Below, piece after piece: positions 2,263-58,118 of a DNA stretch of 64,000 nt. Under the pieces are notes generated by a model that was not told where the DNA came from, ran no database searches, and was given only the letters and a program-made list of their open reading frames with translations. Source of the DNA: Acidovorax temperans (GTDB lineage Bacteria > Pseudomonadota > Gammaproteobacteria > Burkholderiales > Burkholderiaceae_C); contig NZ_VFPV01000001.1 of NCBI RefSeq assembly GCF_006716905.1, forward strand, positions 1,428,001 through 1,492,000, in the 5' to 3' direction. Numbering within the stretch: the first letter of the stretch is position 1; each line of letters opens with the position of its first letter. A program made the position numbers and the translations under genes.

Positions 2263-2318
2263 ACGCTATTAATTACATAGCTGCTTGCGCTTATTTCATA
2301 AGACTCTTGAGGCTTAAA
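2263..2318 (+). repeat. Dispersed palindromic repeat, copy 1
   Basis: The segment contains ATAGCTGCTTGCGCTTAT, then an AAG-n-CTCTTGAGGC arm and an AAAA tail, matching the repeat seen throughout the window (ATAGCTGC, GCGCTT, spacer, AAGCGCTAGAGGC). It is intergenic, between ftsZ and its terminator. Confidence 0.7.
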
Positions 2319-2445
2319 ACCCTCAAAGCCCCGCAAATAAAGCGTAAACAGCTCTCTTTTTCATAGCATTCCTGTGACTGCGCAGCCCTGAGTTTCTGGC
2401 GGGCAGCCAGGCGCGCACTGCCATGCGCCCCGGCCGCCAGCCGCC

Positions 2446-3681
2446 TCAGTCAGCCTGTTTGCGCAGGAACGCGGGGATTTCCAGATCGTCCATGCCACCG
2501 GACGACAGCGCGTCCACACGGGCTGCGGCCTGGGTGCGGTTGGTACGCCACACGCTGGGCACCGACATGCTGCCGTAGTCCGCCGCCTGTGCACCACCGG
2601 CCACGCCCACCGCACTGCCCACGGCGCCCATGGCACCGGCCACAGGCATCTGGTAGGCGATGTTGTCGGTGCCGGTACGCAGGCCGCCCTGCACCACCGA
2701 GATAGGCTGGCGGCGCGCGTTGGGGCGCGACAGGCCGGTAGCCACCACAGTCACGCGAATCTCATCACCCAGGCTGTCGTCGTAGGCAGCGCCGTAGATG
2801 ACATGCGCGTCGGGCGAAGCGTAGGCGTTGATGGTGCTCATGGCCAGGCGCGACTCGGACAGCTTGAGGCTGCCCTTGGCGGCCGTCACCAGCACCAGCA
2901 CGCCCTTGGCACCCGAGAGATCGATGCCTTCCAGCAGTGGGCAGGCCACGGCCTGCTCGGCAGCGATGCGGGCGCGGTCAGGGCCGCTGGCGGTAGCCGT
3001 GCCCATCATGGCCTTGCCGGGCTCGCCCATCACGGTGCGCACGTCTTCAAAGTCGACGTTCACATGGCCGTATTCATTGATGATTTCGGCAATGCCGCCC
3101 ACGGCGTTCTTGAGCACGTCGTTGGCGTGGGCAAAGGCTTCGTCCTGGGTGATGTCGTCGCCCAGCACTTCGAGCAGCTTTTCGTTCAGCACCACGATCA
3201 GCGAATCAACGTTGGCTTCCAGCTCGGCCAGGCCGTTGTCGGCGTTTTGCATGCGGCGGCCACCTTCCCAGTCGAAAGGCTTGGTCACCACGCCCACGGT
3301 CAGGATGCCCATTTCCTTGGCCACGCGGGCGATCACAGGCGCAGCGCCCGTGCCCGTGCCGCCACCCATACCAGCAGTGATGAACAGCATGTGCGCGCCA
3401 TCAATGGCGGCGCGGATGTCTTCCACGGCCGCTTCCGCAGCATCGCGGCCCTTGTCGGGCTTGCTGCCAGCGCCCAGGCCGCTGCCGCCGAGCTGGATGA
3501 TGCGGTGGGCCGAGCTGCGGGTCAGGGCCTGCGCGTCGGTGTTGGCGCAAACGAATTCCACGCCCTGCACGTTGCGGGCAATCATGTGCTCAACGGCGTT
3601 GCTGCCGCCACCGCCCACGCCGATCACCTTGATCTGGGTGCCCTGGTTGAATTCTTCGGCTTCGATCATTTCGATGGACAT
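2446..3681 (-). CDS. ftsZ: Cell division protein FtsZ
   Basis: FtsZ is the tubulin-like GTPase that polymerises into the cytokinetic ring. This 411-residue protein has the GTP-binding signature GGGTGTGAAPV near residue 105, an N-terminal GVGGGGSNAV nucleotide-binding loop, the T7-loop region and a low-complexity linker (about 318-395). It ends with the conserved tail DDLEIPAFLRKQAD, which binds FtsA and other partners. Length and architecture are normal. It is the last gene of the dcw cluster, 154 bp after ftsA, with an AGGAGC ribosome-binding site, and is followed by a strong terminator. Confidence 0.98.
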   Translation of the reverse strand: MSIEMIEAEEFNQGTQIKVIGVGGGGSNAVEHMIARNVQGVEFVCANTDAQALTRSSAHRIIQLGGSGLGAGSKPDKGRDAAEAAVEDIRAAIDGAHMLFITAGMGGGTGTGAAPVIARVAKEMGILTVGVVTKPFDWEGGRRMQNADNGLAELEANVDSLIVVLNEKLLEVLGDDITQDEAFAHANDVLKNAVGGIAEIINEYGHVNVDFEDVRTVMGEPGKAMMGTATASGPDRARIAAEQAVACPLLEGIDLSGAKGVLVLVTAAKGSLKLSESRLAMSTINAYASPDAHVIYGAAYDDSLGDEIRVTVVATGLSRPNARRQPISVVQGGLRTGTDNIAYQMPVAGAMGAVGSAVGVAGGAQAADYGSMSVPSVWRTNRTQAAARVDALSSGGMDDLEIPAFLRKQAD

Positions 3682-3835
3682 CTGGGAGCTCCTGTTTCTT
3701 TACGGGTATGGATTTGCCAATGAATGAATGGGGTCAACTTCGCGGGGGGTGAGCCTGGCGGTCCGGTACATCGCCATCGCTCACGGTGGCGCAGGTGGGG
3801 ACTTTCCCGGGCGAGGGTCGTGGGGAAGTGCTGCA

Positions 3836-5913: not shown

Positions 5914-6896
5914 GGCTGAATGGCTCCTTCATGCCCGGCGGCAGAGTCCAGCGACGCGGTGGCCAAAATGCCCACGCACAGGTCTTCATAGCTCAGCCCC
6001 GCAGCGCGGGCCGACATGGGCACCAGCGAATGGCCAGTCATGCCGGGCGAGGTGTTGATTTCCAGCAGGAAGGGCTGGCGGTCGCTGGCGCGAATCATGA
6101 TGTCGGCACGTGCCCAGCCCCGGCAACCCAGGGCGCGGAAGGCCTTTTCCACCAGACGCTGGATGGCGGCTTCCTCATGCGCTGGCAAGCCGCTCGGGCA
6201 GTGGTACTGGGTGGTGTCGGTGAAGTACTTGTTCTGGTAGTCGTAGTTGCCCTCGGGCGCCACGATGCGGATCACCGGCAGTGCCTGGGCAGCAGCCCCC
6301 TCGCCCAGCACGGGGCAGGTGGTTTCATCGCCTTCGATGAACTGTTCGCACAGCACTTCAGGGTCGTATTGCGAAGCCAGCGCATACGCCTTGGCGCATT
6401 GCTCGGCCGAGGTGACCTTGGTCAGCCCGATGGTCGAGCCCTCACGCGAGGGCTTGACGATCATGGGAGCGCCCAGGGCCTGCAGCGCCTGCTCGGTTTC
6501 CGCTGCGCTGGACACCAGACGCCAGTCGGGGGTGGACAGACCTTCAAAGCGCCAGATGCGCTTGGTCATGATCTTGTCGATGGCAATGCTGGACGCCATC
6601 ACGCCAGGGCCGGTGTACGGAATGCCCAGCAGCTCGAGCGCGCCCTGCACGGTGCCGTCTTCACCATGGCGGCCATGCAGCGCGATGAAACAGCGGGCGT
6701 AACCACCGCGCTTGAGTTCGATCAGATCGGTTTCCGAAGGGTCGAACGCATGGGCATCGACACCGCGCGAGCGCAGGGCCTGCAGCACGCCGGTTCCCGA
6801 CATCAGCGAAACCTCCCGCTCTGCCGAGGAGCCACCCATCAACACGGCCACCTTGCCCAGGGCCTTCACATCAACATTGGTATTCAATTGCGTCAT
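5910..6896 (-). CDS. ddlB: D-alanine--D-alanine ligase
   Basis: Ddl joins two D-alanines for the peptidoglycan stem peptide. The 328-residue ATP-grasp enzyme shows the N-terminal [19 protein letters not shown] motif, the [12 protein letters not shown] segment, the ATP-binding [13 protein letters not shown] stretch, and the metal-binding [16 protein letters not shown] near the C-terminus. The start is the ATG at 6896, which overlaps the murC stop by 4 bp; the stop overlaps the ftsQ start. It acts in the cytosol just upstream of MurF. Confidence 0.97.
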
Positions 6897-8326
6897 TGCG
6901 CTTTCCCTGCAAGCGGTGCTAGCTCACTATTTTGTAGCAAATCGACCACCTTTCCGGGCACCAACCCTATGGAACCAGCCCCCATGCACATGACTACGTC
7001 GCCATCGCGTGCGTTGTCGGCAATGGTCTGTGGCAGATCCGCCACGTTGTCTACAAAAAGCGGCTCCACGCGGCCCGCCACGCGCAGCGCGCGGGCGAGA
7101 GAACGCCCGTCCGCAGCCACCACCGGAGCCTCACCGGCGGCATACACCTCGGTCAGCAACACCGCGTCGGCACTGCCAATCACCTTCACGAAATCTTCAA
7201 AGCAATCGCGTGTGCGGCTGTAACGGTGGGGCTGGAAGGCCAGCACCAGCCGGCGCCCAGGAAAGGCACCACGCGCGGCGGCCAGCGTGGCGGCCATCTC
7301 GACCGGGTGGTGGCCGTAGTCGTCGATCACGGTGAACTGGCCGCCGTCCTTGGCGGGCAGGTTGCCATAGCTCTGGAAGCGCCGGCCCACGCCCTTGAAG
7401 CCCGCCAGCGCGCGCTGCACGGCTTCGTCGGGAATGTTCAGCTCCACCGCAATCGCGATAGCCGACAAGGCATTGAGCACGTTGTGCTCGCCCGCCAGGT
7501 TGAGCACGATGTCCAAGTCCGGCAGCGTGACGCCGTTGCGCCGCTGCACCGTGAAATGCATTTGCCCGGCTTGGGCGCGCACGTTGACGGCACGCACCTG
7601 GGCGTCTTCCGAGAAGCCGTAGCTGGTCACCGGGCAGGTCACGTTGGGCAAGATCTCGCGCACCGCGGGGCTGTCCACGCACAGCACTGCGGTGCCGTAG
7701 AACGGCATGCGGTGCAGAAAGTCCACAAACGCGCCCTTGAGCCGGCCAAAGTCGTGGCCGTAGGTTTCCATGTGGTCGGCGTCGATGTTGGTCACCACCG
7801 CCATCACCGGCAGCAGGTTCAGGAATGAGGCGTCAGACTCATCCGCCTCCACCACGATGTAGTCACCGCTGCCCAGCTTGGCGTTGGCACCCGCGCTGTT
7901 GAGCTTGCCGCCAATCACGAAGGTCGGGTCCAGCCCCGCCTCGGCCAGCACGCTGGTCACCAGGCTGGTGGTGGTGGTCTTGCCATGGGTGCCTGCGATG
8001 GCAATGCCCTGCTTCAGGCGCATCAGCTCGGCCAGCATGAGGGCGCGGGGCACCACGGGAATCTTCTTGGCGCGTGCCGCCAGCACTTCGGGGTTGTCAG
8101 CGGTGACTGCGGTGGAGGTCACCACGGCATCGGCACCATCGATGTTCGCTGCGGCGTGGCCCAGGCAGGTCTTGATGCCCAGGCCCTGCAGGCGGCGCAG
8201 CGTGGCGCTGTCGGCCAGGTCCGAGCCCGAAATGCGGTAACCCAGGTTGAACAGCACTTCGGCAATGCCGCTCATGCCGGCGCCACCCAAGCCTACGAAG
8301 TGGATATGGCGAATGGCGTGCTTCAT
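6893..8326 (-). CDS. murC: UDP-N-acetylmuramate--L-alanine ligase
   Basis: MurC adds L-alanine to UDP-MurNAc. The frame is open much further upstream, but the ATG at 8326 ([20 protein letters not shown]) overlaps the murG stop as ATGA and gives 477 residues, the usual length. Motifs seen are the nucleotide fold [15 protein letters not shown] at the N-terminus, the P-loop [13 protein letters not shown] near residue 112, [12 protein letters not shown] and DDYGHHPVE. The last ~15 residues ([15 protein letters not shown]) are encoded by a copy of the dispersed palindromic repeat, so this C-terminus is probably lineage-specific. The stop overlaps the ddlB start. Confidence 0.97.
6899..6945 (-). 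repeat. Palindromic repeat copy forming the 3' end of murC
   Basis: Read on the minus strand, the segment starts GCTACAAAATAGTGAGCT and continues to AAAGCGC. It aligns without gaps to the copy at 37721-37778 (GCTACAAAATAATGAGCT, later AAAGCGC). It is in frame and ends at the murC stop. Confidence 0.6.
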
Positions 8327-9387
8327 TGTGCCAACTCCTCGCACGCGGCCACCACTTCGCGGGTGGCATTGATTTTTTGCATGTTTTTGGCCTTCTCGGC
8401 AATCTCTACAAGCGCTGGGCGCTCTGAATTCAATAGCATTTTGGCCAACCCCTCGGGGGTCAGGTCGCTTTGCTGCACCAGCCAGCCGCCGCCCGCGCCC
8501 ACCAAAAACTGGGCGTTGGTGGTCTGGTGGTCGTCCACCGCCGAAGGGAATGGCACAAAGATGGCCGCGGCACCCACGGCGGCAATTTCGGTCACGGTGC
8601 TGGCCCCGGCACGGCAGACGATGATGTCGGCGTGGGCAAACGCACTGGCCGTGTCTTCGATGAACGGAGTCAACTCCGCCTGCACGCCAGCGGCCTCGTA
8701 GTTGGCGCGCAATGCATCGATCTGCGTGGCCCCGCTTTGGTGGAGGGCCACGGGGCGTTGCTCGGGCGGAATCAAGGCCAGTGCCTGGGGCACGATCTCG
8801 TTGAGCGCCCGGGCGCCCAGGCTGCCGCCCACCACCAGCAGCCGCAGCGGGCCGGTGCGGCCTGCAAAACGCTCTGCCGGTGCCGCCTGGCGCGTGAATG
8901 CAGTGCGCAGCGGGTTGCCCACCCACTGGGCCTTCTTGAACACGTTGGGGAAGGCGGTGAACACCCGGTCGGCCACGCCCGCCAGCACCTTGTTGGCCAT
9001 GCCCGCCACCGAGTTCTGCTCGTGCAGCACCAGCGGCTTGCCACACAGCACGCCCATCATCCCGCCCGGGAAGGTGATGTAGCCGCCCAGGCCCACCACC
9101 ACATTGGGCTTGACGCGGCGCACGACCTGCAATGCCTGCCAGAACGCACGCAGCAGGCGCAGCGGCAGCAAGGCCAGCGTGACCAGACCCTTGCCGCGCA
9201 CGCCAGAAAAATCAATCAGCTCCAGCGCAAAGCCGTGCTGGGGCACGATGCGCGATTCCATGCTGCCGGGCGCGCCCAGCCAGTGCACTCGCCAGCCGCG
9301 CGCACGCAGCTCTTCGGCCACTGCAAGGCCAGGGAAGATGTGGCCGCCGGTGCCGCCGGCCATGATGAGAGCAGTCTTCTGGCTCAT
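8323..9387 (-). CDS. murG: UDP-GlcNAc:lipid I N-acetylglucosaminyltransferase MurG
   Basis: MurG transfers GlcNAc to lipid I at the inner face of the membrane, making lipid II. The 354-residue GT28-type protein has the N-terminal glycine-rich [12 protein letters not shown] loop, a second [12 protein letters not shown] loop near residue 190 and the UDP-GlcNAc site [19 protein letters not shown] ribosome-binding site precedes the ATG at 9387. That ATG overlaps the stop of the 56-codon ORF upstream, and its own stop overlaps the murC start. A degenerate repeat copy codes for [16 protein letters not shown] near the C-terminus. Confidence 0.97.
8401..8442 (-). repeat. Degenerate palindromic repeat copy inside murG
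   Basis: On the minus strand it reads GCTATTGAATTCAGAGCG, then CCAGCGCTTGTAGAG. The order of blocks fits the repeat, and the encoded LLNSERPAL resembles [10 protein letters not shown] in MurC. It is weaker than the other copies. Confidence 0.4.
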
Positions 9388-9554
9388 ACGCGACCTCCGC
9401 GCATGGGCTGCTGCGCAGCCCGCATTGCTGGTGCAATGCAGCGCATATTTTTAAGAAACAAGCTGCTCATACGCGGCCTCCGTGCATCGAATGCTTCGCA
9501 TTCGGCAGCGCTGACGCGCTGCAGTTGCTTGCTTTGATGAAACAAGCTGCTCAT
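9384..9554 (-). CDS. 56-residue coupled mini-ORF between ftsW and murG
   Basis: The ftsW stop (9551-9553) overlaps an ATG at 9554 that opens a 57-codon frame. Its own TGA (9384-9386) overlaps the murG ATG, so all three frames are chained by ATGA overlaps. The frame contains the sequence CGGAGG-CCGCGT-ATGAGCAGC twice, and a close variant precedes murG; MSSLF occurs twice and the ORF ends MRGGRV, exactly as ftsW does. This looks like tandem duplication of the ftsW/murG junction that kept the reading frame. Whether the peptide has a function is unknown; it may only keep ribosomes moving from ftsW into murG. No family recognised. Confidence 0.5.
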
Positions 9555-15480: not shown

Positions 15481-17006
15481 GCCCATGTGCTGCCTCCGCG
15501 GGCCTGCAGCGCTGCACGCGCCTGGGCCATGTCTGAAAACGGGCGGCGCACGCCCGCCACCTCTTGGTAATCCTCGTGCCCCTTGCCGGCAATCAGCACC
15601 ACATCCGCAGGGTCGGCCTCGTTCAATGCCAGGGCGATGGCGGCGGCACGATCGGGCTCCACCCGCACGGTTTCGCCGGCAATCGTGCCCTGCAGGATCT
15701 GGTGCAGGATGTGGGCAGGGTCTTCGCTGCGCGGGTTGTCGCTGGTGGCCACCACCCAGTCGGCATGGTGCTGGGCGGCAGCGCCCATGAGCGGACGCTT
15801 GGTGGCATCACGATCACCCCCGCAGCCGAACACGCACCACAGTTGCCCACCGCGCTGCTGCGCCAGGGGGCGCAATGCTTGCAGGGCTTTTTCCAGCGCG
15901 TCGGGCGTGTGGGCGTAGTCCACAGCCACCAGAGGCTGGCCGGGCAGCGCCAGTTGCTCCATGCGGCCCGGCACGGGGCTGAGCTGTGCGCAGGCGTGCA
16001 CGGCATCCGCCAGCGGCACCCCCAGGCTGCGCAGCGTGGCCACCACGCCCAGCAGATTGAGCACGTTGTAATGGCCCACCACGCGGGATTGCAGCAGGTG
16101 CTGCTCCGCCCCTTCGACCACCAGCCACTGCAGGCCTTGCGTGCCGGCGGCAATGTCACGTGCGGCAATGCGCGCTTCGCCCGCAGCAGACACACTCCAC
16201 ACGTCCAAAGCACTGGCACCGCTGCGCTGAAGCAGTTCAGCGTGCAACTGCGCCCCGTGGGGGTCGTCGATGTTCACTACTGCGGTGCGCAACCCAGGCC
16301 AGTCGAACAAGGCCCGTTTGGCCAGCCAGTAGTCGGCCATGGAGCCGTGGTAGTCCAGATGGTCCTGCGTGAAGTTGGTGAACACGCCCACGCGGATCTG
16401 GGTGCCCGCCAGGCGGTGCTCCGCCAAGCCAATGGATGACGCTTCGATCGCACAGGCTGCCAAGCCTTGGTCGGCAAACTGGCGGAAGGCCCGGTGCAGG
16501 CGCACGGGGTCGGGAGTGGTCATGCCAGTGGTGAGCAGAGAGGGCGGAACACCCACACCCAAAGTACCCACTACCGCACAACCAGCAAGCGCAGGCAGCT
16601 CATTTTTTGATAGCAAATTCAAGGCTTCTGCCAACCACCAGGTGCTGCTGGTCTTGCCATTGGTGCCCGTCACGGCCAGCACCTGCAGGGCGTGGGACGG
16701 GTCATGAAACCATTGGGATGCCATCTCGCCCGTGGCGGCCTTGAGCCCACTGAACGCGGCGATGGGCGCAGCTGCCGGAAAGACAAAGTCCTGCACGCCC
16801 TGGGCTTCGACCAAGCAGGCTGCAGCACCGCGCTGAAGCGCATCTGCCACATGGGCGCGGCCATCGGTGGCCGCACCGGGCCAGGCGATGAAGCCGTCGC
16901 CCGGCTGCACACTGCGGCTGTCCGTCTGCAAAGTACCCGTGACGCGGGCGCGCAGCCACGCCACGGCTTCAGCCGCCTGGTGCAGGGTGGTCAAGGGGGC
17001 TGTCAC
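15477..17006 (-). CDS. murE: UDP-MurNAc-L-Ala-D-Glu--meso-diaminopimelate ligase MurE
   Basis: MurE adds the third stem residue. The GTG at 17006 overlaps the ftsI stop as GTGA and gives 509 residues; the longer open frame upstream lies in ftsI in another frame and lacks similarity. It has LQTDSRSVQPGDGFIAWPG, the P-loop VTGTNGKTSSTWWL, and the C-terminal ATSDNPRSEDPAHI, whose DNPR box is typical of enzymes that use meso-DAP. Residues LLSKNELPALAGCAVV, just after the P-loop helix, are encoded by a degenerate copy of the palindromic repeat. Confidence 0.97.
   Translation of the reverse strand: MTAPLTTLHQAAEAVAWLRARVTGTLQTDSRSVQPGDGFIAWPGAATDGRAHVADALQRGAAACLVEAQGVQDFVFPAAAPIAAFSGLKAATGEMASQWFHDPSHALQVLAVTGTNGKTSSTWWLAEALNLLSKNELPALAGCAVVGTLGVGVPPSLLTTGMTTPDPVRLHRAFRQFADQGLAACAIEASSIGLAEHRLAGTQIRVGVFTNFTQDHLDYHGSMADYWLAKRALFDWPGLRTAVVNIDDPHGAQLHAELLQRSGASALDVWSVSAAGEARIAARDIAAGTQGLQWLVVEGAEQHLLQSRVVGHYNVLNLLGVVATLRSLGVPLADAVHACAQLSPVPGRMEQLALPGQPLVAVDYAHTPDALEKALQALRPLAQQRGGQLWCVFGCGGDRDATKRPLMGAAAQHHADWVVATSDNPRSEDPAHILHQILQGTIAGETVRVEPDRAAAIALALNEADPADVVLIAGKGHEDYQEVAGVRRPFSDMAQARAALQARGGSTWA
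16561..16620 (-). repeat. Degenerate palindromic repeat copy inside murE
   Basis: On the minus strand it reads GCTATCAAAAAATGAGCTGC, then CTGCGCTTG, GCGGTAGTGG and GTACTTTGG, following the block order of the family. It is in frame and encodes LLSKNELPALAG. Confidence 0.5.
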
Positions 17007-22267: not shown

Positions 22268-22287
22268 GGTGTCAGCCTGAATTCAAT

Positions 22288-22345
22288 CAAAAATGGCTCT
22301 GGCGCTTATTAATAAAGCGCTAGCAGCTATCAAAATAATAGTAAA
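22288..22345 (-). repeat. Dispersed palindromic repeat, copy between hslV and hslU
   Basis: A nearly perfect copy. On the minus strand it reads ATAGCTGCTAGCGCTTTATT, then AATAAGCGCCAGAGCCAT and a TTTTT run. The two arms can pair into a long hairpin in the hslV-hslU transcript. Confidence 0.85.
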
Positions 22346-27010: not shown

Positions 27011-28255
27011 TCAGGCCTTGCGCATCACCACCAGGCCCTTGAGGTATTCCCCTTCAGGAAACTCCAGTGTCATCGGGTGGTCAGGTGCGCCCCCCAGGCG
27101 TTCGGTGATGTAGCCATCCACCCCCGCATCGGCCCCGGCGGATGCCACGATCTTGTGGAACAGATCAGCACTGATACCGCCCGAGCACGAGAAGGTGAAC
27201 AGCACGCCGCCCGGCTCCAGCAGTTGCAGCGCCAGGCGGTTGATGTCTTTGTAAGCCCGCGCTGCGCGGTCGGCGTGGGCGGCCGTGGGCGCAAATTTGG
27301 GCGGGTCGAGCACGATGGCGTCAAAGCGCACGCCGTCCTTCAAAAACTGGCGCAGCGATGCATTCACATCGGCGTCCATGAACCGGGCCTGCGCCACATC
27401 AAAACCGTTGAGCAGCACATGGGCGCGGGCCCGATCCAGCGCGGGGCCGGACGAATCGATGGAAGTCACCACGCCACCGCCCTGCCCGCCCGCCTGCTCG
27501 GCAGCGCGCATGCCCGCCAGCGCGGCCACGCTGAAGCCGCCGGTGTAGCAAAAGCAGTTGAGCACCTTGCGCAGGTTCAAGCGCTGCACACAGTCGGCAA
27601 AACGCTTGCGGCTGTCGCGCTGGTCCAGGTAAAAGCCGGTCTTGTGGCCTTCGGCGATGTTCAGCGTCAGGCGCCAGTCGTGTTCGTGGATGGTCAACTC
27701 CAGTGGCGGCTCAGGCTGCCCCGTCTGCCCAGCAACAGGCCCACCCCGCAGCCAGCCGGTGGCGGGCTCCAGACCTTCCAGCTGGCGCACGTTGGCGTCC
27801 GATCGCTCATACAGCTTGCTCAAGCCCGTGGCCTGCAGCAAGGCATCGACCAGCACCGCCTTCCAGCGCTCAGTGCCCGCACTGGTGAACTGGGCCACCA
27901 GCGTATCGCCGTAGCGGTCCACGATCAGGCCGGGCAGCCCATCGGATTCGCCGTGCACCAGCCGCACGCCATCGCTTTTAACGTCAAATCGGTCTCTAGC
28001 GCTTATAGAGCGAGCGCAAGCAGCTATAAAAAAAGAAGCATCAATGCGCTGCTTTTCATCAAAGCTCCACACCCGGGCTCGGATGCGCGAATGGGGGCTG
28101 AACGCCGCCCAAGCCAGAAACTGCCCCTCGTGCGACTCGACACGCACCGTCTCTCCGCTGTCGCCGCCGCCTTTGGCAATGGCAGATTCAAATATCCAGG
28201 GGTGGCGGCGCTGCAGCGAGCGTTCTTTGCCTTGCTTAAGTCGGATCGTTTTCAT
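27011..28255 (-). CDS. rlmI: RlmI-like 23S rRNA (cytosine-5)-methyltransferase
   Basis: A class I SAM-dependent methyltransferase with an N-terminal PUA domain, like RlmI, which makes m5C1962 in 23S rRNA. In the 414 residues are the PUA start IRLKQGKERSLQRRHPWIFE, the GESDGLPGLIVDRYGD segment, NLRKVLNCFCYTGGFSVAAL (SAM site), FDAIVLDPPKFAPT (catalytic loop) and LLEPGGVLFTFSCSGG with the catalytic Cys. A full copy of the palindromic repeat lies in frame at 27991-28036 and codes for FFIAACARSISARDRF. Stand-alone gene, divergent from cheW. Confidence 0.88.
   Translation of the reverse strand: MKTIRLKQGKERSLQRRHPWIFESAIAKGGGDSGETVRVESHEGQFLAWAAFSPHSRIRARVWSFDEKQRIDASFFIAACARSISARDRFDVKSDGVRLVHGESDGLPGLIVDRYGDTLVAQFTSAGTERWKAVLVDALLQATGLSKLYERSDANVRQLEGLEPATGWLRGGPVAGQTGQPEPPLELTIHEHDWRLTLNIAEGHKTGFYLDQRDSRKRFADCVQRLNLRKVLNCFCYTGGFSVAALAGMRAAEQAGGQGGGVVTSIDSSGPALDRARAHVLLNGFDVAQARFMDADVNASLRQFLKDGVRFDAIVLDPPKFAPTAAHADRAARAYKDINRLALQLLEPGGVLFTFSCSGGISADLFHKIVASAGADAGVDGYITERLGGAPDHPMTLEFPEGEYLKGLVVMRKA
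27991..28036 (-). repeat. Complete palindromic repeat copy inside rlmI
   Basis: On the minus strand it reads TTTATAGCTGCTTGCGCT, a short spacer, then ATAAGCGCTAGAGACCG, so both arms are intact. It is in frame within the rlmI coding sequence. Confidence 0.85.
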
Positions 28256-30812: not shown

Positions 30813-31699
30813 AGGTGGTCTGGGATGTCGATCTGGCCTTCGAACACGGTGGTGGCCGGGCCGGTCATGTAAAGGGTGTCGGTGTCCTGGCCCGTCCAGG
30901 CGATGGTGAGGCGGCCGCCGCGCATGTCCACATGCACTTCGTTGTCGAGCAGCCCCAGGCGAATGCCGGCCGCTACAGCCGCGCAGGCGCCCGTGCCGCA
31001 GGCCAGCGTTTCGCCCGTGCCGCGCTCGAACACGCGCAGGCGCACGTGGTTGCGGCCCACCACCTGCATAAAGCCCGCATTCACACGCTGCGGAAAGCGC
31101 GGGTGCCGCTCCACCAGGGGGCCCCAAAGGGCCACCGGGGCGGTGTCCACATCGTCCACCAGCTGCACGGCGTGGGGGTTGCCCATGGACACCACCACTA
31201 CCAAAACTGTAGCTGGTTGCGCAGGCACATCAAGCGCTAGCGGCCATTTTTGCCCTGAACCTTGCGCCACCGGCTGCAGGCCGGTGGTGTCAAAGGGCAC
31301 GCGGGCAGGCTCCAGCACGGGGCGGCCCATGTCCACGGTGACTCGGCCATCGGGCGTGAGGCGGGGGGCGATGACGCCGCTGAGCGTTTGCACGCGGATG
31401 GTGTCCTTGTCCGTCAGACCCTTGTCGCGCACGTAGCGGGCAAAGCAGCGCGAGCCGTTGCCGCACTGCTCCACCTCGCCGCCATCGGCGTTGTGGATCA
31501 CGTATTCGAAATCGATGCCTTCAGCGGCAGCATCTGCGGTGGGTCGGCGCACGGTGAGGATCTGGTCCGCGCCCACGCCAAAGTGGCGGTCAGCCAGGTA
31601 GCGGTAGTGCGCAGGCGTCAGGCCCAGGCGGCCCTGGGTTTCGTCCAGCACGACAAAGTCGTTGCCAGCGCCCTGCATTTTGGTGAAGCGAATCTGCAT
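30809..31699 (-). CDS. dapF: Diaminopimelate epimerase
   Basis: DapF converts LL-DAP to meso-DAP, the substrate of MurE and the precursor of lysine. The 296-residue protein has both catalytic cysteines in [15 protein letters not shown] and [15 protein letters not shown], and the start [18 protein letters not shown] copy of the palindromic repeat (31200-31252) is read in frame in reverse orientation, encoding [17 protein letters not shown] before the conserved [11 protein letters not shown]. First gene of dapF-DUF484-xerC. Confidence 0.97.
31200..31252 (+). repeat. Palindromic repeat copy inside dapF
   Basis: On the plus strand it has CAAAACTGTAGCTGGTTGCG and ATCAAGCGCTAGCGGCCATT followed by TTTG. 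The block order fits the family. dapF is read on the opposite strand. Confidence 0.75.
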
Positions 31700-32498: not shown

Positions 32499-32500
32499 CG

Positions 32501-36549: not shown

Positions 36550-38229
36550 ATGCCACGCACCAGCCAGCACCTGCACCCCTCCCGCGAGCCCGTGAGCCCT
36601 TTGCACGCAGCCACCGTGCTGCTGATGCGCGATGCCTCGCCGGGCGGCGATCTTGAAGTTTTGATGACCCGGCGCTCTGGCAAAGCCAGCTTTGCGCCGG
36701 GGGCGTATGTCTTCCCCGGCGGGGGCATCGACGAGGCAGACCGCCTGGCCCACCCGGTGGCCGACCGGCGCCCCACGCAAAGCGACGAACACCTCACCCA
36801 GGCCATTGCGGCCATTCGCGAGAGCTTTGAAGAGCTGGGCATTTTGCTGGCGCGCCATGCCAGCGGCCCCCGCCAAGGCCAGATGGCCGACGCGCAAGAC
36901 ATTGCCGCGCTGGACCGCCACCAGCCCTTTGCCGAGCAATGCAGCGCCCGCGGCCTGCGCCTGGCCGCCGACAGCGTGTTCCTGCTGGCCCACTGGACGG
37001 CCGACCGCGACCTGCCCCGGCGCTTTGCCGTGCCCTTCCTGGTGGCGCGCATGCCCGAGGGGCAAGAGCCCGTGGCCGACGAAACCGAGCAGTTTGAGCC
37101 CGTGTGGGTGCGCCCGGCCGACGCACTGGCGCGGCACGAGGCAGGCCAGTTCTTCATGATCTTCCCGACCATCCGCACCCTGCAGTGGCTGGCCCGCTTT
37201 GCCAATACCGACGCCGTGCTGGCCGCCCTGGCGCACGAAAAGCCGCTGTGGACCAGCTGCCCCCGCGCCGGGCTGCTGGGCGGCAAGGAAGCGCACTACA
37301 TGGAAGGCGATGCCCCCTTCGGCGAACTGGCCCTGGTGTGCCCCGATGGCCAGATCGCCCACCCGCTGGACTGGCAGAGCGAGCGGCCCGTGCCGCTGCT
37401 CAAGAACGTGCAGCGCCTCACCGCCCCCAATTCGGGCGTGATGACCGGCCCCGGCACCAACAGCTACCTGGTGGGCGAACCGGGCACCGGTTTCATCGCC
37501 ATCGACCCCGGCCCGGCCGACCCCGACCACCTGGAAAAGCTGTGGCGCGCTGCGGGCGGCGATATCCGCATGATCGTGTGCACCCACTCGCATCCCGACC
37601 ATTCCCCTGGTGCAGCCCCGCTGCAAGCGATGTGCGAACGCGCGGGCCGGGCCAAGCCGCCCATTTTGGGCCTGCCATCGGCCCCCACCGCGCGGGTGGT
37701 GAGCCAGTTCACGCCCGACAGGGCGCTACAAAATAATGAGCTGCTGGCGCTTTCTGGTAAAGCGCTAGAAGGCGAAATCACCCATACCCTGCAAGTGGTG
37801 CACACCCCCGGCCACGCAGCCAACCACCTGTGCCTGATCCTGCGCGAAGATGGCCTGCTGTTCAGCGGAGACCACATCCTCAACGGCAGCACCACCGTGA
37901 TCGACCCGCCCGACGGCAATATGGCCGACTACCTCGACTCGCTCGACCGGCTCGATGCCCTGTGCGCCGAACACGACGTGCAATTCATCCTGCCCGCACA
38001 CGGCTATGTGCTGGACAATGCGCGGGGCGCCATCGCGCAGCTCAAAGCCCACCGCCTGGCGCGCGAAGCGAAAGTGCTGGCCGCCATGCAAGCCCTGCCC
38101 GACGGCACGCCCGAAGACTGGGTGCGCCACGCCTACAGCGATGTGCCCCCGCGCATGTGGCCCGTGGCCCAGCGTTCGCTGCTGGCCCATGTGGAGCGCA
38201 TCCGCACCCTGCCACCGGGCAACAATTGA
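36550..38229 (+). CDS. Nudix hydrolase-metallo-beta-lactamase fusion protein
   Basis: A 559-residue two-domain enzyme. The first ~230 residues are Nudix-like: YVFPGGGIDEAD, then after an insertion RESFEELGILLAR, fitting the REUXEEXGU box. The second half (from about 300) is an MBL-fold hydrolase with THSHPDHSPGAA (HxHxDH), HTPGHAANHLCLI, SGDHILNGST and a final HG. The two enzymatic parts suggest processing of a nucleotide- or CoA-linked substrate followed by ester or thioester cleavage (inference). A palindromic repeat copy in the MBL part encodes ALQNNELLALSGKALEGEI. The start lacks a clear ribosome-binding site; a GTG at 36592 is an alternative. Confidence 0.85.
   Translation: MPRTSQHLHPSREPVSPLHAATVLLMRDASPGGDLEVLMTRRSGKASFAPGAYVFPGGGIDEADRLAHPVADRRPTQSDEHLTQAIAAIRESFEELGILLARHASGPRQGQMADAQDIAALDRHQPFAEQCSARGLRLAADSVFLLAHWTADRDLPRRFAVPFLVARMPEGQEPVADETEQFEPVWVRPADALARHEAGQFFMIFPTIRTLQWLARFANTDAVLAALAHEKPLWTSCPRAGLLGGKEAHYMEGDAPFGELALVCPDGQIAHPLDWQSERPVPLLKNVQRLTAPNSGVMTGPGTNSYLVGEPGTGFIAIDPGPADPDHLEKLWRAAGGDIRMIVCTHSHPDHSPGAAPLQAMCERAGRAKPPILGLPSAPTARVVSQFTPDRALQNNELLALSGKALEGEITHTLQVVHTPGHAANHLCLILREDGLLFSGDHILNGSTTVIDPPDGNMADYLDSLDRLDALCAEHDVQFILPAHGYVLDNARGAIAQLKAHRLAREAKVLAAMQALPDGTPEDWVRHAYSDVPPRMWPVAQRSLLAHVERIRTLPPGNN
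37721..37778 (+). repeat. Palindromic repeat copy inside the Nudix-MBL gene
   Basis: It contains GCGCTACAAAATAATGAGCT, then GCTGGCGCTTTC and GGTAAAGCGCTAGAAGGCG. It is in frame, in the same orientation and phase as the copies in murC and murE. Confidence 0.8.
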
Positions 38230-39053: not shown

Positions 39054-39068
39054 CTGCGCCCACCCCGG

Positions 39069-39125
39069 AGCTACCAAAACCATAGCTGCCAGCGCTTGCC
39101 ACGATTGCGCCAGAGGCACTTTTCG
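39069..39125 (+). repeat. Dispersed palindromic repeat, intergenic copy before yjgN-like gene
   Basis: It reads CTACCAAAACCATAGCTGCC, AGCGCTTGCC, then TTGCGCCAGAGGCACTTTT. Block order and TTTT tail match the family. It lies just after the S4-protein stop. Confidence 0.75.
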
Positions 39126-39184
39126 CCTCAAGCAAACCCCTCCTGGTCGGCTGCTAAACTGCGCCCACAAAAGGGAGGGAGAGA

Positions 39185-41737: not shown

Positions 41738-41746
41738 AAATAAAGT

Positions 41747-42796: not shown

Positions 42797-42809
42797 GCCC
42801 GCACGCCCT

Positions 42810-42862
42810 TCAAAAACCATAGCACCTGCCGCTTTCTGCATGGGCGCTAGACGGTGTTTTTG
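42810..42862 (+). repeat. Dispersed palindromic repeat, intergenic copy before cysK
   Basis: It reads CAAAAACCATAGCACCTGCC, GCTTTCTGCAT, then GGGCGCTAGACGGTGTTTTT. It lies in the 172-bp gap between the methyltransferase and cysK genes. Confidence 0.75.
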
Positions 42863-42968
42863 CACCAAATCCGCATCTTTTTGCAGCGGCATATCCATAT
42901 GCCCAGGCGGGCAGAACAAGTGGTTCAGAATGTGCGACATCTTTTCATCCCCTTCTCCAGGAGACGCC

Positions 42969-46086: not shown

Positions 46087-47077
46087 ATTGCATCAGCGGC
46101 ATGAGCGGCGGCACGGCTGGCGCAGCCTTCCGCAACGCCCGTGGTGGCCCTGGCTGACACGCGGGGCTGCCGCGGCATTCTTTGTGCTGGTGGCCGGGTT
46201 GCTGTTTCGCCAGGCCCGCACGGTGGACTGGCCCGCCGTGCTGCAGGCGTTGCGCGCCCTGCCCCCGGGCACCCTCGCCGTGGCTGGTGCGCTGGCGCTG
46301 GCCAGCCACTGCCTGTATGGCACGTTTGACCTGGTGGCGCGCCACTGCTGCGGGCACCGCCTGCGGCGCAGCACCACGCTGGGCATCGCCATGACCAGCT
46401 ATGCATTCACGCTGAACCTGGGCTCGCTCGTGGGCGGGGTGGGCGTGCGCTACCGGCTGTATGCGCGGCGCGGGGTGGATGCGGGCACCATCGGCCAGGT
46501 GGTGGGCACCAGCGTATTGACCAACTGGGTGGGCTACCTGCTGCTGGCTGCCGTGCTGCCCTGGCTTTGGGCACCGCCGCCGCTGGCAGGCTGGAGTGCA
46601 CCCGCATGGCAATGGCGCCTGGGCGGCGCCTTGCTGGGTTGCATTCCACTGGCTTACGGTGTGCTGTGTGCGCTGCGCGCGGGGCGCGCCGTCACGCTGC
46701 GGGGCCACGCGTTTGCGCTGCCCCGCTGGCCCGTGGCCTTGTGGCAAATGGCTGCGTCGGCCGGCAACTGGATGCTGATGGGTGCCGCGCTGTGGGCCAC
46801 GCTGCAGGCGCAGGTGAGTTACCCCGCGGCCTTGGCCACCGTGTTGCTGGGCGCGGTGGCGGGGCTGGTACTGCGGGTGCCCGCTGGCCTGGGGGTTCTG
46901 GAAGCCGTGGGCGTAGCCCTGCTGACCAGCCCCAGCCTGGGGCAGGACAAGGTGCTGGCTGCCCTGCTCGCCTACCGTGCGCTGTATTACTTCGTGCCCC
47001 TGGTGCTGGCTTCGCTGGCCCTGGGTGCGGCCGAACTGCGCTGGCGCCACGGCGAAGCAGCATCTGCAAAGAATTAA
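46064..47077 (+). CDS. ybhN: YbhN-family (UPF0104) membrane protein
   Basis: A 337-residue polytopic protein of the lysylphosphatidylglycerol-synthase-like flippase/transport family. About eight hydrophobic segments are seen, starting at GAAAAFFVLVAGLLFRQ. Conserved parts are TLGIAMTSYAFTLNLGSLVG, GVGVRYRLYARRGV and VPAGLGVLEAVGVALL. I use the ATG at 46064, which gives close to the E. coli length (318); an ATG at 46010 is possible. It overlaps the clsB end and completes the operon. Confidence 0.9.
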   Translation: MQPAALPELHQRHERRHGWRSLPQRPWWPWLTRGAAAAFFVLVAGLLFRQARTVDWPAVLQALRALPPGTLAVAGALALASHCLYGTFDLVARHCCGHRLRRSTTLGIAMTSYAFTLNLGSLVGGVGVRYRLYARRGVDAGTIGQVVGTSVLTNWVGYLLLAAVLPWLWAPPPLAGWSAPAWQWRLGGALLGCIPLAYGVLCALRAGRAVTLRGHAFALPRWPVALWQMAASAGNWMLMGAALWATLQAQVSYPAALATVLLGAVAGLVLRVPAGLGVLEAVGVALLTSPSLGQDKVLAALLAYRALYYFVPLVLASLALGAAELRWRHGEAASAKN

Positions 47078-47078
47078 G

Positions 47079-47132
47079 CCAAATCGGCGCGTAGCGCTTA
47101 TTCCACAAGCGCAGGCAGCTATCAATTTTGAT
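47079..47132 (-). repeat. Dispersed palindromic repeat, copy after ybhN
   Basis: On the minus strand it has AAAATTGATAGCTGCCTGCG, then CTTGTGGAATAAGCGCTACG and CGCCGATTTGG. It starts right after the ybhN stop and lies upstream of the FAD oxidoreductase gene. Confidence 0.8.
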
Positions 47133-47252
47133 GAACCACCCCTTACCCGCATCACACCCAGATGGCCAGGGGGTGCGCCCGCCATACACCCCCGGTAAAA
47201 TCACGGCCCCTCGACTTTGCCTGCCGCCCGATCGACACGGGCCCGCAAAACC

Positions 47253-52056: not shown

Positions 52057-52122
52057 GGTAACCATCCCCCGGCAAAGCCGGGGGCATTCGGGATGTGAGC
52101 CGCTCAAAGCGGCTGTAAGGGG

Positions 52123-53578
52123 CATCCCTTTCAAGGTCTTGTCCCCGCAGCCTGTTTGAGGACACGAGCGGTGGACAGCTGCTTGCGAGCCACAGCGCCA
52201 GCCACGTATCCCCCAGGCTTTTCCTTCTTGGGGCCGCGCTTGGCCGTGGCAACACTGCGCGGGTTGACCGTCCCTGCCAGGCGCAGCAGATGCTGCGCAA
52301 CCTCCGCGCTTGACGCCTCGCACCACGATTGCCACACCTCAGATGGCAGCGCGATGAGCATGCCCTGGTAGTCGCTGGCCACATGCACGCCCAGGTGATA
52401 GGTCGAGACATCCAGACCAGGCGCTCGCTCGCAGTGCGCCTGCTCCACGCAGCGCTTGAGTAGCGCCAACACGTTGAACGCCAGCACTGCTGCAGCAAAC
52501 CCCAACAGCGCCGCACGCGGGTGGCCCAAGGTCCGGATCTCGCTGTGCAGCACCGATTCGAGCCGTCCGAACAAGCCCTCGATGCGCCAGCGCTTGCGGT
52601 ACAACTGCGCAATGGTGGCCGCGTCGATGCTCGCCGGCAGGTTGCTCCACAAGGCAATGCTTTGGTCACCCGCTTCGGTGGGCGCCTGCAACTGGATCTC
52701 GATGCGGCGCCAGGACGGCGGGGCGAGCACCGTCTCCTGGGTGGCCGCCAGCTCAATGGCTTGCTCACGCACCTGCCCGGTCTCTGTTGGCACGGCTTCG
52801 CTCCAGGGGCCGGTATTGTCCAACTTCGGGTGCCTGGCGTGCTCACGCACGATAAAGCCCGCTTGGCGCTGTTGCCAGCCCTGCAGCAGGGTGCGGGTGC
52901 AGAAGTGGCGGTCGGCGATCCACACCTGGCCCTGCTGGGCCTGCTGCAGCAAGGTGGCCGCGCCTACGCGCTCGCTCTCGTGCGCGTCCTCGCAGGCCAG
53001 GATGTCCGTGACCAGGGCGCTGTCGGGGTCGTAGACCACCAGCGTGTGGCCCGGCATGGCCGCTCCCCGGTGCGAGCGCAGTGGCGCCAGGCGTTTGTCA
53101 CTGGCTGGCAAATGGTTGCCATCGAGAATGCGCAGTTGCCAGCCCTGTAGGCTGGGCTGGCTGCCTACCGCAGCAACCACCGGCTGCAGGCGCGCCGCGC
53201 TGCCTTGCACCAGTGCCCGCAGCACCTGGGGCTCTGTGCGCTTGACCTTGTCGTACAGCGCCGCCAGCGTGACGGGCAACTGCGCCATCTTCTTGGCCGC
53301 CGCGTGCAGCGAGGGGCGCAGCCCCAGGCTCACCAGCATCATCAGCTCCACCACGCTGGAGAACAGCAACTCGCGTGGATATTGGCGTTGGCGGCTGGTC
53401 TGGAACACTTCATCCACCCAGCACGCCGGCAAGGCATGCTCCAACGCCACCCGGGTCATCACGCTCACCGGCGCATGGCTCTCAAACCTCTCCAAGACTT
53501 CTTTCCACATCCGCAGTTCTCCCTCTGTGGGGCGAAGGTTACTGCTGCGGGAGCAGGGACAACACCTTGAAAGGGATG
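52123..53578 (-). mobile_element. IS4-family insertion sequence (1456 bp) with 11-bp target duplication
   Basis: Terminal inverted repeats start CATCCCTTTCAAGGT and match at both ends for about 23 bp with one mismatch. The target sequence GCTGTAAGGGG is present on both sides (52112-52122 and 53579-53589), as expected for the IS4 group. It carries one transposase gene. It landed within IS200 copy B, so it came later. Confidence 0.95.
52131..53510 (-). CDS. IS4-family transposase
   Basis: A 459-residue DDE transposase. The start is the ATG at 53510 (MWKEVLERFESHAPVS), which lies within the element; a longer frame would start outside it. Catalytic positions are D in RILDGNHLPASD, D in VWIADRHFCTR and E in QLYRKRWRIEGLFGRLE, the last matching the IS4 YREK signature. 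The gene is complete and ends 8 bp from the left inverted repeat end, so the element may still be active. Confidence 0.95.
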   Translation of the reverse strand: MWKEVLERFESHAPVSVMTRVALEHALPACWVDEVFQTSRQRQYPRELLFSSVVELMMLVSLGLRPSLHAAAKKMAQLPVTLAALYDKVKRTEPQVLRALVQGSAARLQPVVAAVGSQPSLQGWQLRILDGNHLPASDKRLAPLRSHRGAAMPGHTLVVYDPDSALVTDILACEDAHESERVGAATLLQQAQQGQVWIADRHFCTRTLLQGWQQRQAGFIVREHARHPKLDNTGPWSEAVPTETGQVREQAIELAATQETVLAPPSWRRIEIQLQAPTEAGDQSIALWSNLPASIDAATIAQLYRKRWRIEGLFGRLESVLHSEIRTLGHPRAALLGFAAAVLAFNVLALLKRCVEQAHCERAPGLDVSTYHLGVHVASDYQGMLIALPSEVWQSWCEASSAEVAQHLLRLAGTVNPRSVATAKRGPKKEKPGGYVAGAVARKQLSTARVLKQAAGTRP

Positions 53579-53635
53579 GCTGTAAGGGGTCGCTAACGCG
53601 GCCCCTCATTCTTGGGGCCACCTATCGGTGGCTAC

Positions 53636-54067
53636 TCACCTCCATAGACCGAGTTGGTCCAACCTCTCGTCTTCCTTCTCCTGGTTTCGGATGTACTCCC
53701 GTATCACCGCTTCGTCGCGTCCCACCGTCGAGACGAAGTACCCTCGCGCCCAGAAGTGCTGACCCACGAAGTTGCGCTTTCGCTCTCCGTACACCCGCGC
53801 AAGGTGGATTGCGCTCTTGCCTTTGATAAAGCCCACCACCTGCGACACCGAGTACTTCGGTGGGATCGACAGCATCATGTGCACGTGATCGGGCATCAGA
53901 TGCCCCTCTTCAACCCTGCATTCCTTTTGCGCGGCCAACTTTCTGAATACCTCACCCAGGTGTTCGCGTAGCTGCTTGTACAGCGTTCGCCTTCGACACT
54001 TGGGGATGAAGACCACGTGATATTTGCAATCCCAGGCCGTGTGACTCAAACTTTCATACTTGTCCAT
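53636..54067 (-). CDS. tnpA: IS200/IS605-family transposase TnpA, copy B
   Basis: The 143-residue product is identical to copy A, with the HUH pair H61 and H63 and the nucleophile Y125. The IS4-family element lies outside this gene, close to the 3' end of the IS200 unit, so the protein is intact but one DNA end of its element is separated. Confidence 0.95.
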   Translation of the reverse strand: MDKYESLSHTAWDCKYHVVFIPKCRRRTLYKQLREHLGEVFRKLAAQKECRVEEGHLMPDHVHMMLSIPPKYSVSQVVGFIKGKSAIHLARVYGERKRNFVGQHFWARGYFVSTVGRDEAVIREYIRNQEKEDERLDQLGLWR

Positions 54068-56029: not shown

Positions 56030-56246
56030 GTTCTCTCCGTGGGGTCAACAACAAGTGTTTGTTCGCTCATGTGGGGGCTGGTTCCGTGCAGTTCAAGCAT
56101 GGATGGCAGGATTGCCGGCCCGCCGCCCCTTCATGGACGCGATTGCATCGCGCTATGGTAGGGGCAAACTCACTGCAGGCCTTATCACACAGGCCATGGC
56201 GGGAATTACACCGCCTGCCCAGGATGTGGCCCTGGCTGGTGTCTGC

Positions 56247-56984
56247 TCACCGGGGCGGGCGAAACACCTGGGCGTCTGCGTAAAACTCCGGCGCTTCGTT
56301 GCCCGGCCACCAGCCTGGCACCCCCAGCACCGGCAGGGGTGCGAAAGGCTTGGCATCCCAGGGCTGGGGCTGCATGGCCTGCGCCAGCCAGCCATCCAAA
56401 GCAGCTATGGATTTTATAGCTTGCGGCGCTTGATAGACGTGCGCTACCATCGGTTTTCGTGGTGAAACCAGCTTTTCCAGCAGGGCGTGGCCGAACAGCA
56501 ACAGCCGAGCCTCGGCCCACAAAGGGCGCAGCTCGATGAAAAGGCGCTGCCAGTCCCGCGCGCGCAGGGCCTGCCACAGCGCAGCGGGCGCTTGCAGCAG
56601 AGCCCCGTTTTCATCAAACACCGTGAGCGCGTCACGCAGCGGACCGCGCACCGCGCCCACGCCGTCTTGCGCAATCGCCTGGGCCTGCAGTTCGTTGATG
56701 CGCCGCTTGGCCTGCGGAAATTCCAGCCACACCAGGCCGTTGAAAAAATCGTGCAGGTTGTCGCGCGTGGGCACGCAGCGGGTGTCCCAGATGAATTGTT
56801 CGTAGGCCTGCCCCTCGGGCAGATCGCTCTGGGGCACAAAACGCACCGGAGCGGGGGCGGCTGAAAGCGCGGCATGCACTGGCACACCGGCCGCTTGCAG
56901 CGCAGCCGCCAGAGGCTCTCCCCGGGTCTGCCAGGGCTGCAGCCAGGGGGCAGCCCAGTCGATGCGCTCTACACCAGGCGCCAC
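56247..56984 (-). CDS. DUF3025 family protein
   Basis: A 245-residue member of an uncharacterised proteobacterial family. Typical parts are [40 protein letters not shown] and [13 protein letters not shown] chose the GTG at 56984, which overlaps the pyrC end by 16 bp and gives [15 protein letters not shown] palindromic repeat copy (56398-56456) lies in frame and encodes [19 protein letters not shown]. Function unknown; probably co-transcribed with pyrC. Confidence 0.85.
56398..56456 (+). repeat. Palindromic repeat copy inside the DUF3025 gene
   Basis: The plus strand has AAAGCAGCTATGGATTTTAT, AGCTTGCGGCGCTTGATAG, then GTGCGCTACCATCGGTTTT. The gene is read on the other strand. Confidence 0.7.
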
Positions 56985-58009
56985 GGCAACGCTTCGCCAG
57001 CGCGCAGGGGCTTGAGGTTGGCCTCGCCAAACACAAAGCTTTCGGGCGGCGTCCACGACTCGCGGCGCAGGGTGATGGTGCCGGTGTTGCGCGGCAGGTT
57101 GTAGAAGTCGGGGCCGTGGAAGCTGGCAAAGCCCTCGAGCTTGTCGAGCGCGCCCGCGTTGTCAAACGCCTCGGCATACATCTCCATGGCGGCGTGCGCG
57201 GTGTAGCAGCCTGCGCAGCCAGTGGCGTGTTCCTTGAGATGTGCAGGGTGCGGGGCGCTGTCGGTGCCCAGGAAGAACTTGTGGCTGCCGCTGGTGGCGG
57301 CCTGCACCAGGGCCACACGGTGCGTTTCGCGCTTGAGCACGGGCAGGCAGTAGTAGTGGGGGCGTACACCACCCACAAAGATGGCGTTGCGGTTGTACAG
57401 CAGGTGGTGCGCGGTGATGGTGGCGGCCGTGTAGCGGTCGGCCTCGGCCACGTAGTCGGCAGCGTCTTTGGTGGTGATGTGCTCGAAGACGATCTTCAAT
57501 TCGGGAAAGTCGCGGCGCAGCGGGATGAGTTGCTGCTCAATGAAGACGGCCTCGCGGTCGAAGAGGTCGATGTCGCTGCTGGTCACTTCGCCGTGCACCA
57601 AGAGCAGCATGCCTGCCTTCTGCATGGCTTCGAGGGTCTTGTAGGTTTTGCGGATGTCGGTCACGCCCGCGTCGCTGTTGGTGGTGGCGCCTGCGGGGTA
57701 GAGCTTGCAGGCCACCACGCCTGCGGCCTTGGCACGCACGATTTCTTCGGACGGCAGGTTGTCGGTGAGGTACAGCGTCATCAGCGGCTCAAAGCTCACG
57801 CCTGCGGGCACGGCGGCCAGGATGCGCTGCTTGTAGGCCAGGGCCTGCTCGGCCGTGGTGACCGGGGGGCGCAGGTTGGGCATGATGATCGCGCGGCCAA
57901 ACTGGGCGGCCGTGTGGGGCACGACGGTGTGCAGGGGTTCGCCGTCGCGCACATGCAGATGCCAGTCGTCAGGGCGGGTGATGGTGAGGGTGTGGGGTGC
58001 TGCAGTCAT
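56969..58009 (-). CDS. pyrC: Dihydroorotase PyrC
   Basis: PyrC closes carbamoyl aspartate to dihydroorotate in pyrimidine synthesis. The 346-residue class II enzyme has the metal ligands in [10 protein letters not shown], the carboxylated lysine in [15 protein letters not shown], histidines in MLLLVHGEV and [14 protein letters not shown], and the catalytic aspartate in FLGTDSAPH. The ATG at 58009 has GGAG close upstream and is preferred to one at 58018. Confidence 0.97.
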
Positions 58010-58060
58010 GGGCTCCATTGTCCCATTGCCTCCAGCCCTGCCACAGCCCTCTGCGCAATT

Positions 58061-58118
58061 GCTATATTTTTAATAGCTACTTGCGCCTTCTATTCGGGCG
58101 CTAGAGCCTGAAATGGCT
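58061..58118 (+). repeat. Dispersed palindromic repeat, intergenic copy upstream of pyrC
   Basis: It contains TTTTTAATAGCTACTTGCGC, CTTCTATTC, then GGGCGCTAGAGCCTGAAATG. It lies between the Bug receptor and pyrC, in the pyrC leader. Confidence 0.8.

Follow-up and report, generated by a model that had tools for sequence, protein, structure and literature searches.

The window analysed here is a 64,000-nucleotide stretch of the Acidovorax temperans genome (contig NZ_VFPV01000001.1, positions 1,428,001 to 1,492,000), in which an earlier note, made from the letters alone, had described a dispersed palindromic repeat family lying both between and inside genes. The family is real. As the basis of a weight matrix we used 234 distinct copies, taken from fetched loci and from the window; the matrix has 69 columns with sharp edges, and a score of at least 10 bits was counted as a hit. 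All 13 places reported earlier (12 plus a weaker one in murG) scored 17-86 bits, and a 14th copy was found. The window copies contributed to the matrix and are not independent of it, so reversed sequence served as the independent control.

The first copy, at 2262..2330 (+, 17.2 bits), is intergenic and is overlapped by the 14th, inverted one at 2302..2370 (-, 16.8 bits); these two low-scoring copies in opposite orientation form a doublet-like pair. The copy at 6873..6941 (-, 19.3 bits), previously placed within murC (6893-8326, -), extends over the stop codon at the gene's 3' end, and 4 of 5 relatives have it too (at least 5 bits). Copies lie inside murG (8323-9387, -) at 8372..8440 (-, 27.4 bits; 5/5 relatives), inside murE (15477-17006, -) at 16549..16617 (-, 35.5 bits, mostly the left half; 5/5) and inside rlmI (27011-28255, -) at 27974..28042 (-, 74.4 bits; 4/4 alignable relatives). 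In dapF (30809-31699, -) the copy at 31194..31262 (48.2 bits; 5/5) proved to be on the + strand and antisense. A gene with NUDIX and metallo-beta-lactamase-fold domains (Pfam; 36550-38229, +) carries a copy at 37722..37790 (+, 59.8 bits; 5/5), and a DUF3025 gene (Pfam; 56247-56984, -) carries one in antisense at 56401..56469 (+, 27.1 bits; 4/4 alignable). The copy at 47069..47137 (-, 63.4 bits) covers the 3' end of a + gene (46184-47077) and is present in the sole alignable relative. The remaining copies are intergenic: 22277..22345 (-, 86.3 bits; 5/5), whose other strand gave a raw hit at 22277-22345 (+) that was merged with it; 39067..39135 (+, 47.8 bits; 4/4 alignable); 42804..42872 (+, 24.4 bits), where no relative could be aligned; and 58058..58126 (+, 62.4 bits), present in the sole alignable relative. 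Of 70 window-copy-by-relative pairs, 44 were anchored by both flanks, and the motif (at least 5 bits) stood at the same place in 43 of these. Stretches of 80 kb from each of five other relatives contained no hit of at least 10 bits.

The window copies align without a gap; the length of the element is therefore fixed, at about 69 bp. Two facing half-sites, AGCTGCNNGCGCTT and AAGCGCTAGAGGCC, surround a 7-nt centre and are flanked by A/T tracts, and the consensus, with the variable centre written as N7, is ATTGCTATTAAATTGATAGCTGCTAGCGCTT-N7-AAGCGCTAGAGGCCAATTTGACTTAAAATTT. The spacer, which had been described as 8-12 bp and variable in length, is instead a centre of fixed length and variable sequence. 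Information of about 57 bits is spread across the 69 bp, and the mean GC content of the copies is 45%. At the centre GATGGAT is preferred, with at least 5 of 7 positions matched in 117 of 448 copies (shuffled mean 61, maximum 80), and so is its reverse complement, in 69 copies (shuffled mean 18, maximum 28). The A and T tracts swap for one another among copies. This exchange and the symmetric centre preference look like signs of a symmetric DNA reader; inversion of the loop is a possible alternative cause of the two-way preference at the centre.

We scanned 864 kb of the A. temperans genome, made up of the window and 40 stretches of 20 kb each. The matrix gave 138 raw hits, or 119 after overlaps were merged; the reversed sequence gave no hit. 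Allowing up to 3 mismatches, a 32-bp pattern matched 484 places across the genome, compared with 1 for the reversed pattern. Word counts were also raised: AAGCGCTAGAGGC with up to 2 mismatches occurred at 7 places against 1.8 expected (2 of 100 shuffles reached this), and ATAGCTGCNNGCGCTT with up to 3 mismatches at 23 places against 9.7 expected (0 of 100 shuffles). None of the titles and abstract openings listed describes the motif, literal motif strings had no match in papers, and a search of the window with Rfam at gathering thresholds matched RNase P only.

Genes predicted with our script cover 85% of this sample but hold only 32 of the 119 copies wholly (20 sense, 12 antisense), with 60 intergenic and 27 over gene ends, so the copies are concentrated outside genes. 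The high density in essential genes that had been remarked on is thus a property of the window that the larger sample does not share. Convergent spacers were the richest, with 1.15 copies per kb (20 copies), followed by tandem (0.76; 61 copies) and divergent ones (0.22; 5 copies). Both orientations occur, as proposed, with 67 copies on the + strand and 52 on the - strand; the matches listed from the pattern scan had hinted at a strand bias by replichore, which was not borne out in the fetched sequence. Per 20 kb the 40 stretches held 2.6 copies on average with a variance of 2.3, and 5 stretches had none. Since the variance is close to the mean, the spacing is even or random (Poisson-like).

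The earlier remark that the motif is common in Comamonadaceae was borne out. Counting matches with up to 2 mismatches, 36 genomes of the genus (our own included) held 1 to 463 copies each: 31 had at least 20, one had 11 and four had 1-2. Across the family, 23 of 200 sampled genomes had at least 20 copies, three of these from the genus, and none of 24 genomes belonging to other families in the order had more than one. Twenty-two genomes chosen through loci known to carry the motif held 3 to 501 copies, among them Acidovorax facilis DSM 649 (286), A. radicis N35 (248), Acidovorax sp. MR-S7 (501), Diaphorobacter nitroreducens (295), Paenacidovorax caeni (278) and Comamonas sp. B21-038 (3). In one copy-poor species (G018) the median score was 26 (n=6), compared with 59 in our genome, as if its copies were decaying.

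We compared motif-bearing with motif-free proteins for 32 in-gene copies from six motif-bearing genomes; 31 had an ortholog, representing seven distinct genes and 141 comparisons. The alignment was free of gaps in 120 of the 141, and in 15 it held a gap of 1-6 residues, in murE, whose product is 2-6 residues shorter at this point in motif-free genomes; the remaining 6, all with the DapF of one genome (G002), were anomalous. In none of the 141 was the segment absent (at least 18 residues missing). MurG was colinear with motif-free MurG, and with the Pseudomonas structure 3s2u save for two single-residue insertions; RlmI was colinear with the Escherichia coli structure 3c0k save for two additional residues of the E. 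coli protein at the segment edge. A gene near 12.6 kb of our stretch carries the motif in two genomes (G033 and G007), and in four other motif-bearing genomes it lacks the motif at equal length. For miaA, nine genomes including our own scored 31-50 bits, G018 scored -1 and G002 scored 4, and four motif-free genomes had no motif and a one-codon gap. Spans of ThiL in 15 genomes, compared by length only, ran from 951 to 984 nt. In comparisons between motif-bearing relatives, 0 of 181 pairs combined absence with a shorter spacer, and the 8 clear absences fell in one gene, at equal length. The genic motif therefore arises and vanishes through substitution, without a 69-bp insertion or deletion. On this basis we rejected in-frame insertion of the Rickettsia palindromic element kind, and the doubt already raised about a mobile element was well placed.

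Within genes the motif is written in synonymous, often rare codons. In rlmI the peptide is nearly identical among relatives, and our copy spells the motif with the rare codons ATA and AGA while motif-free relatives use others. We examined third codon positions under columns of at least 1 bit for seven genic window copies, including the murC copy that spans the stop codon. Identity to motif-bearing relatives was 0.880 (n=292), compared with 0.672 in the flanks (n=6846; Fisher p=9e-16); identity to motif-free relatives was 0.431 under the motif (n=267), compared with 0.627 in the flanks (n=6526). Third-position conservation is thus confined to the lineages that carry the motif. Intergenic copies behaved similarly, with identity 0.817 in high-information columns (n=611) against 0.626 in low-information ones (n=487; p=2e-12), and column information correlated with ortholog identity among motif-bearing relatives (rho 0.57) but not motif-free ones (0.11, p=0.35). 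Because the cells come from twelve loci in related genomes and are not independent, the p values of the identity tests are too small. At the protein level, median identity of the motif segment fell to 46% in murG (87% for the gene) and 38% in the NUDIX gene (82%), and was 80.5% in rlmI (87.6%).

The motif is nearly absent from three plasmid-like replicons. In Acidovorax sp. DW039 a 20-kb stretch of the second contig is 100% identical to plasmid NZ_AP029020.1 (364,914 bp), which has 4 copies in 360 kb against 49 expected from its chromosome (30 in 220 kb). Contig C5 of our own genome has 1 copy in 160 kb where 22 were expected; it codes for a Tn3 transposase as well as a protein bearing a Mu-type transposase domain, overlaps an A. 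temperans plasmid over 9.4 kb at 93% identity (37% of a 20-kb query), and is a putative plasmid. The A. temperans plasmid pEP1 (187,379 bp) has no copy. In G018 the second contig had 1 copy in 60 kb and the first 6 in 80 kb, counts too low for a comparison.

The best reading of these sequence comparisons is that the motif is a chromosomal recognition site in double-stranded DNA, about 69 bp long and kept by selection or drive. We hypothesize that it is an unusually long DNA-uptake signal, to which we assign a probability of roughly 0.5. Uptake is a candidate because it is known to maintain sequences by biased import, as with the DNA uptake sequence (DUS) of Neisseriaceae and the uptake signal sequence (USS) of Pasteurellaceae. 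On this hypothesis the type IV pilus uptake machinery would include a receptor with a preference for motif-bearing DNA; transformation would keep importing and restoring kin sequences that resemble the motif, so that copies would sharpen in place, in essential genes too; and lineages losing uptake specificity would let their copies decay. The origin of in-gene copies by substitution, the silent-site conservation, the even spacing in both orientations, the bias toward chromosomes over plasmids and the range of 1-463 copies within one genus support it, and our genome encodes both ComEC and a minor pilin of the ComP_DUS family (PF16732). According to the portions of PMC4212676 used here, natural transformation occurs in A. 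temperans, A. facilis and Verminephrobacter eiseniae, the last of which prefers its own DNA. A bolder version, which we entertain tentatively and do not favour, would make the motif a new kind of genome-wide DNA label: the whole 69-bp dyad with its A/T tracts and about 57 bits would act as one unit for its receptor, spreading by substitution instead of insertion, rewriting protein stretches of essential genes, marking chromosomes but not plasmids and decaying when unused.

Several observations weigh against an uptake signal. At 69 bp the motif is far longer than the named uptake-sequence cores, which the same portions of PMC4212676 put at 9-11 bp, and a dominant short core of about 9-12 bp in the style of DUS or USS was rejected on counts of over-represented words: motif words top the 10-mer list of our sample (25 and 22 copies) yet without dominance, and none is among its top 14 8-mers. 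Those portions report no detected transformation for A. defluvii and A. delafieldii, and A. defluvii is motif-rich, with 314 copies at up to 2 mismatches (in a record flagged UNVERIFIED_CONTAM). They also state that none of the Acidovorax species tested was transformed by DNA of another species; several Acidovorax share the motif, which alone would not explain this barrier. ComEC and ComP_DUS each occur in 44 of 47 genus genomes, motif-free ones included, and are therefore no marker of motif-rich species; the genomes without a ComEC match are one motif-poor genome (G005) and two with 99 (G003) and 44 (G020) copies. Our ComP_DUS protein resembles a general PilE-type pilin, and none of 24 Protein Data Bank hits was named ComP. 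Three intergenic loci are shorter where the genome is motif-free, in most comparisons by 74-117 bp, though at one of these the difference from our own copy is 25-32 bp; spacers of motif-free genomes are shorter at the 39067 and 58058 copies. Intergenic copies may therefore have been partly inserted, or the spacers may have shrunk later; at 22277 the spacer of motif-free genomes ranges from 1 bp shorter to 34 bp longer. Comparison of orthologous loci, which had been suggested as a way to recognise a mobile element, placed copies at the same positions in relatives and, for genic copies, showed the motif coming and going with no indel. Finally, the exact 32-bp pattern occurs in 17 IMG/VR contigs, a count with no host-matched phage baseline, and in some of them clear phage genes lie beside it, among them those for a terminase (contig L157), a portal protein (L151), Ant (L145) and Rha (L150, L160). 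Such phage copies do not fit the uptake hypothesis neatly.

The best copy in each of these viral contigs scored 65-91 bits, near consensus. The gene next to the motif had a PHROG match at 1e-5 in all 10 contigs tested, one being RdgC, which is also bacterial. By our script's gene calls the motif stands at or just past a gene 3' end in 9 of 12 contigs, and the last part of a terminase gene holds it at L157:8133-8201, L151:1108-1176 and L155:8487-8555; the phage records among the matches listed for the terminase comparison all had less than 60% identity. Copies at or near gene 3' ends, antirepressor-type genes included, were also seen in L145, L150, L160, L148, L161 and L156.

The main rival to uptake, which we consider somewhat unlikely, is a site for a cytoplasmic, chromosome-specific protein (acting in nucleoid organisation, segregation, occlusion or recombination) and maintained under ordinary selection. 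This rival would account just as well for evolution in place, the conservation of silent sites, even spacing and absence from plasmids, and the symmetric centre with its A/T tracts would suit a dimeric DNA binder. Such a site is harder to reconcile with the lack of strand bias and of concentration in any part of the sampled contigs, and with the spread from 1 to 463 copies within the genus; this range, together with motif-free species that have normal core genes, suggests a dispensable function. The least probable account, by our reckoning, is an element acting at the RNA level, for instance a terminator or an mRNA hairpin. Copies do prefer convergent over divergent spacers and often abut gene ends, but mid-gene copies are conserved in both sense and antisense, the A and T tracts are interchangeable, and the check on stem covariation that had been proposed yielded at most a weak signal. 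In 64 copies from our genome, mostly intergenic or over gene ends and one in a predicted gene, the RNAalifold covariation term was 0.04 kcal/mol. For a 14-pair stem, 6 of 500 shuffles reached the covariation score, 26 reached the double-change count, and 50, 130 and 317 reached the three other measures; the same test on two flanking hairpins showed nothing. Covariation, weak or nil, lends no support to an RNA fold.

An old mobile repeat of the repetitive extragenic palindromic (REP) or miniature inverted-repeat transposable element type, spread by insertion and later kept or decayed, would account for the sharp ends and fixed length, for the three intergenic loci that are shorter in motif-free genomes and for the near-consensus phage copies. 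We regard it as improbable, given that none of the 141 genic comparisons lacks the segment (for genic copies it is already disfavoured), that no motif-bearing pair joins absence to a shorter spacer, that the 22277 spacer is not shorter by the length of the element, and that the loci of a REP-associated tyrosine transposase (RAYT)-like gene are almost free of copies (13 of 14 have none within 1.5 kb, and at the other a weak copy lies at a distance of about 0.3 kb). These loci give no support to a RAYT mobiliser. Little different in standing, and if anything less probable, is templated overwriting, in which gene-conversion-like copying would lay the motif over existing DNA at constant length. 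The strong divergence of the motif segment at several loci (murG and the NUDIX gene) and a copy within thiL that is close to consensus (88.6 bits) would agree with such copying; the rlmI codons, which change with hardly any effect on the peptide, and intermediate scores, such as those of miaA (-1 to 50 bits), speak against it.

Among known systems, the motif resembles DUS and USS, with which it shares hundreds of copies on both strands, genic and intergenic, and, by features that are partly general background and partly described in portions of PMC4212676, in-place evolution and a chromosomal rather than plasmid-borne location; it differs in its unit, which is near-palindromic and 69 bp long where theirs is a core of 9-11 bp, and in having some copies in phage contigs. 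REP sequences with their RAYT genes are likewise short, palindromic, mostly extragenic and present in hundreds of copies, and most genomes here have a RAYT-like Y1 gene; the motif differs in not flanking that gene and in showing no genic insertion. Rickettsia palindromic elements are palindromic repeats inside protein-coding genes that were inserted in frame and lengthen the protein. The likeness to them is that of a palindromic repeat within genes, but motif-bearing proteins keep their length. The BRE repeats of betaproteobacteria, Comamonadaceae included, are also dispersed, with some copies in coding sequence; portions of PMC3110155 describe them as about 90 bp long, with a mean GC content of 69%, often in tandem and in at most 29 copies. 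This description sets them apart from a dispersed 69-bp motif of 45% GC with hundreds of copies.

Verminephrobacter, which is closely related to Acidovorax, has been shown to take up DNA selectively, and the portions of PMC4212676 used here name no signal sequence for this uptake; the motif is a concrete candidate. If this is true, uptake labels would not be limited to the two groups named there, and their length could far exceed 9-11 bp. Should uptake play no part, the motif would still be a strong lead to a DNA-binding protein, and it appears to bend codon and amino-acid choice in murG, dapF and rlmI. It also cautions that repeats within genes are not necessarily insertions.

Other repeats and mobile elements were noted in passing. 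The RAYT-like gene (G000:C1:1188423-1188719) encodes a divergent Y1 transposase of about 240 aa; most genomes of the genus have it, usually in a single copy, and motif-free genomes are among them; it shows no link to the motif. Two near-identical IS200-like elements with a Y1 transposase lie at 32496-33044 and 52052-54067, sharing 300 bp at 32555/53578 with 100% identity. Our genome has 35 such genes with a 153-aa open frame, all on the - strand in contig C1, all on the + strand in C2 and mostly on the - strand in C3, an orientation bias without parallel in the motif. Near the start of murG, at 9366-9571, a 39-bp unit occurs in three partly conserved copies at a spacing of 83-84 bp, and at 26053-26212 short direct repeats that overlap one another and are rich in CATGGTCGTG resemble His-rich coding repeats.

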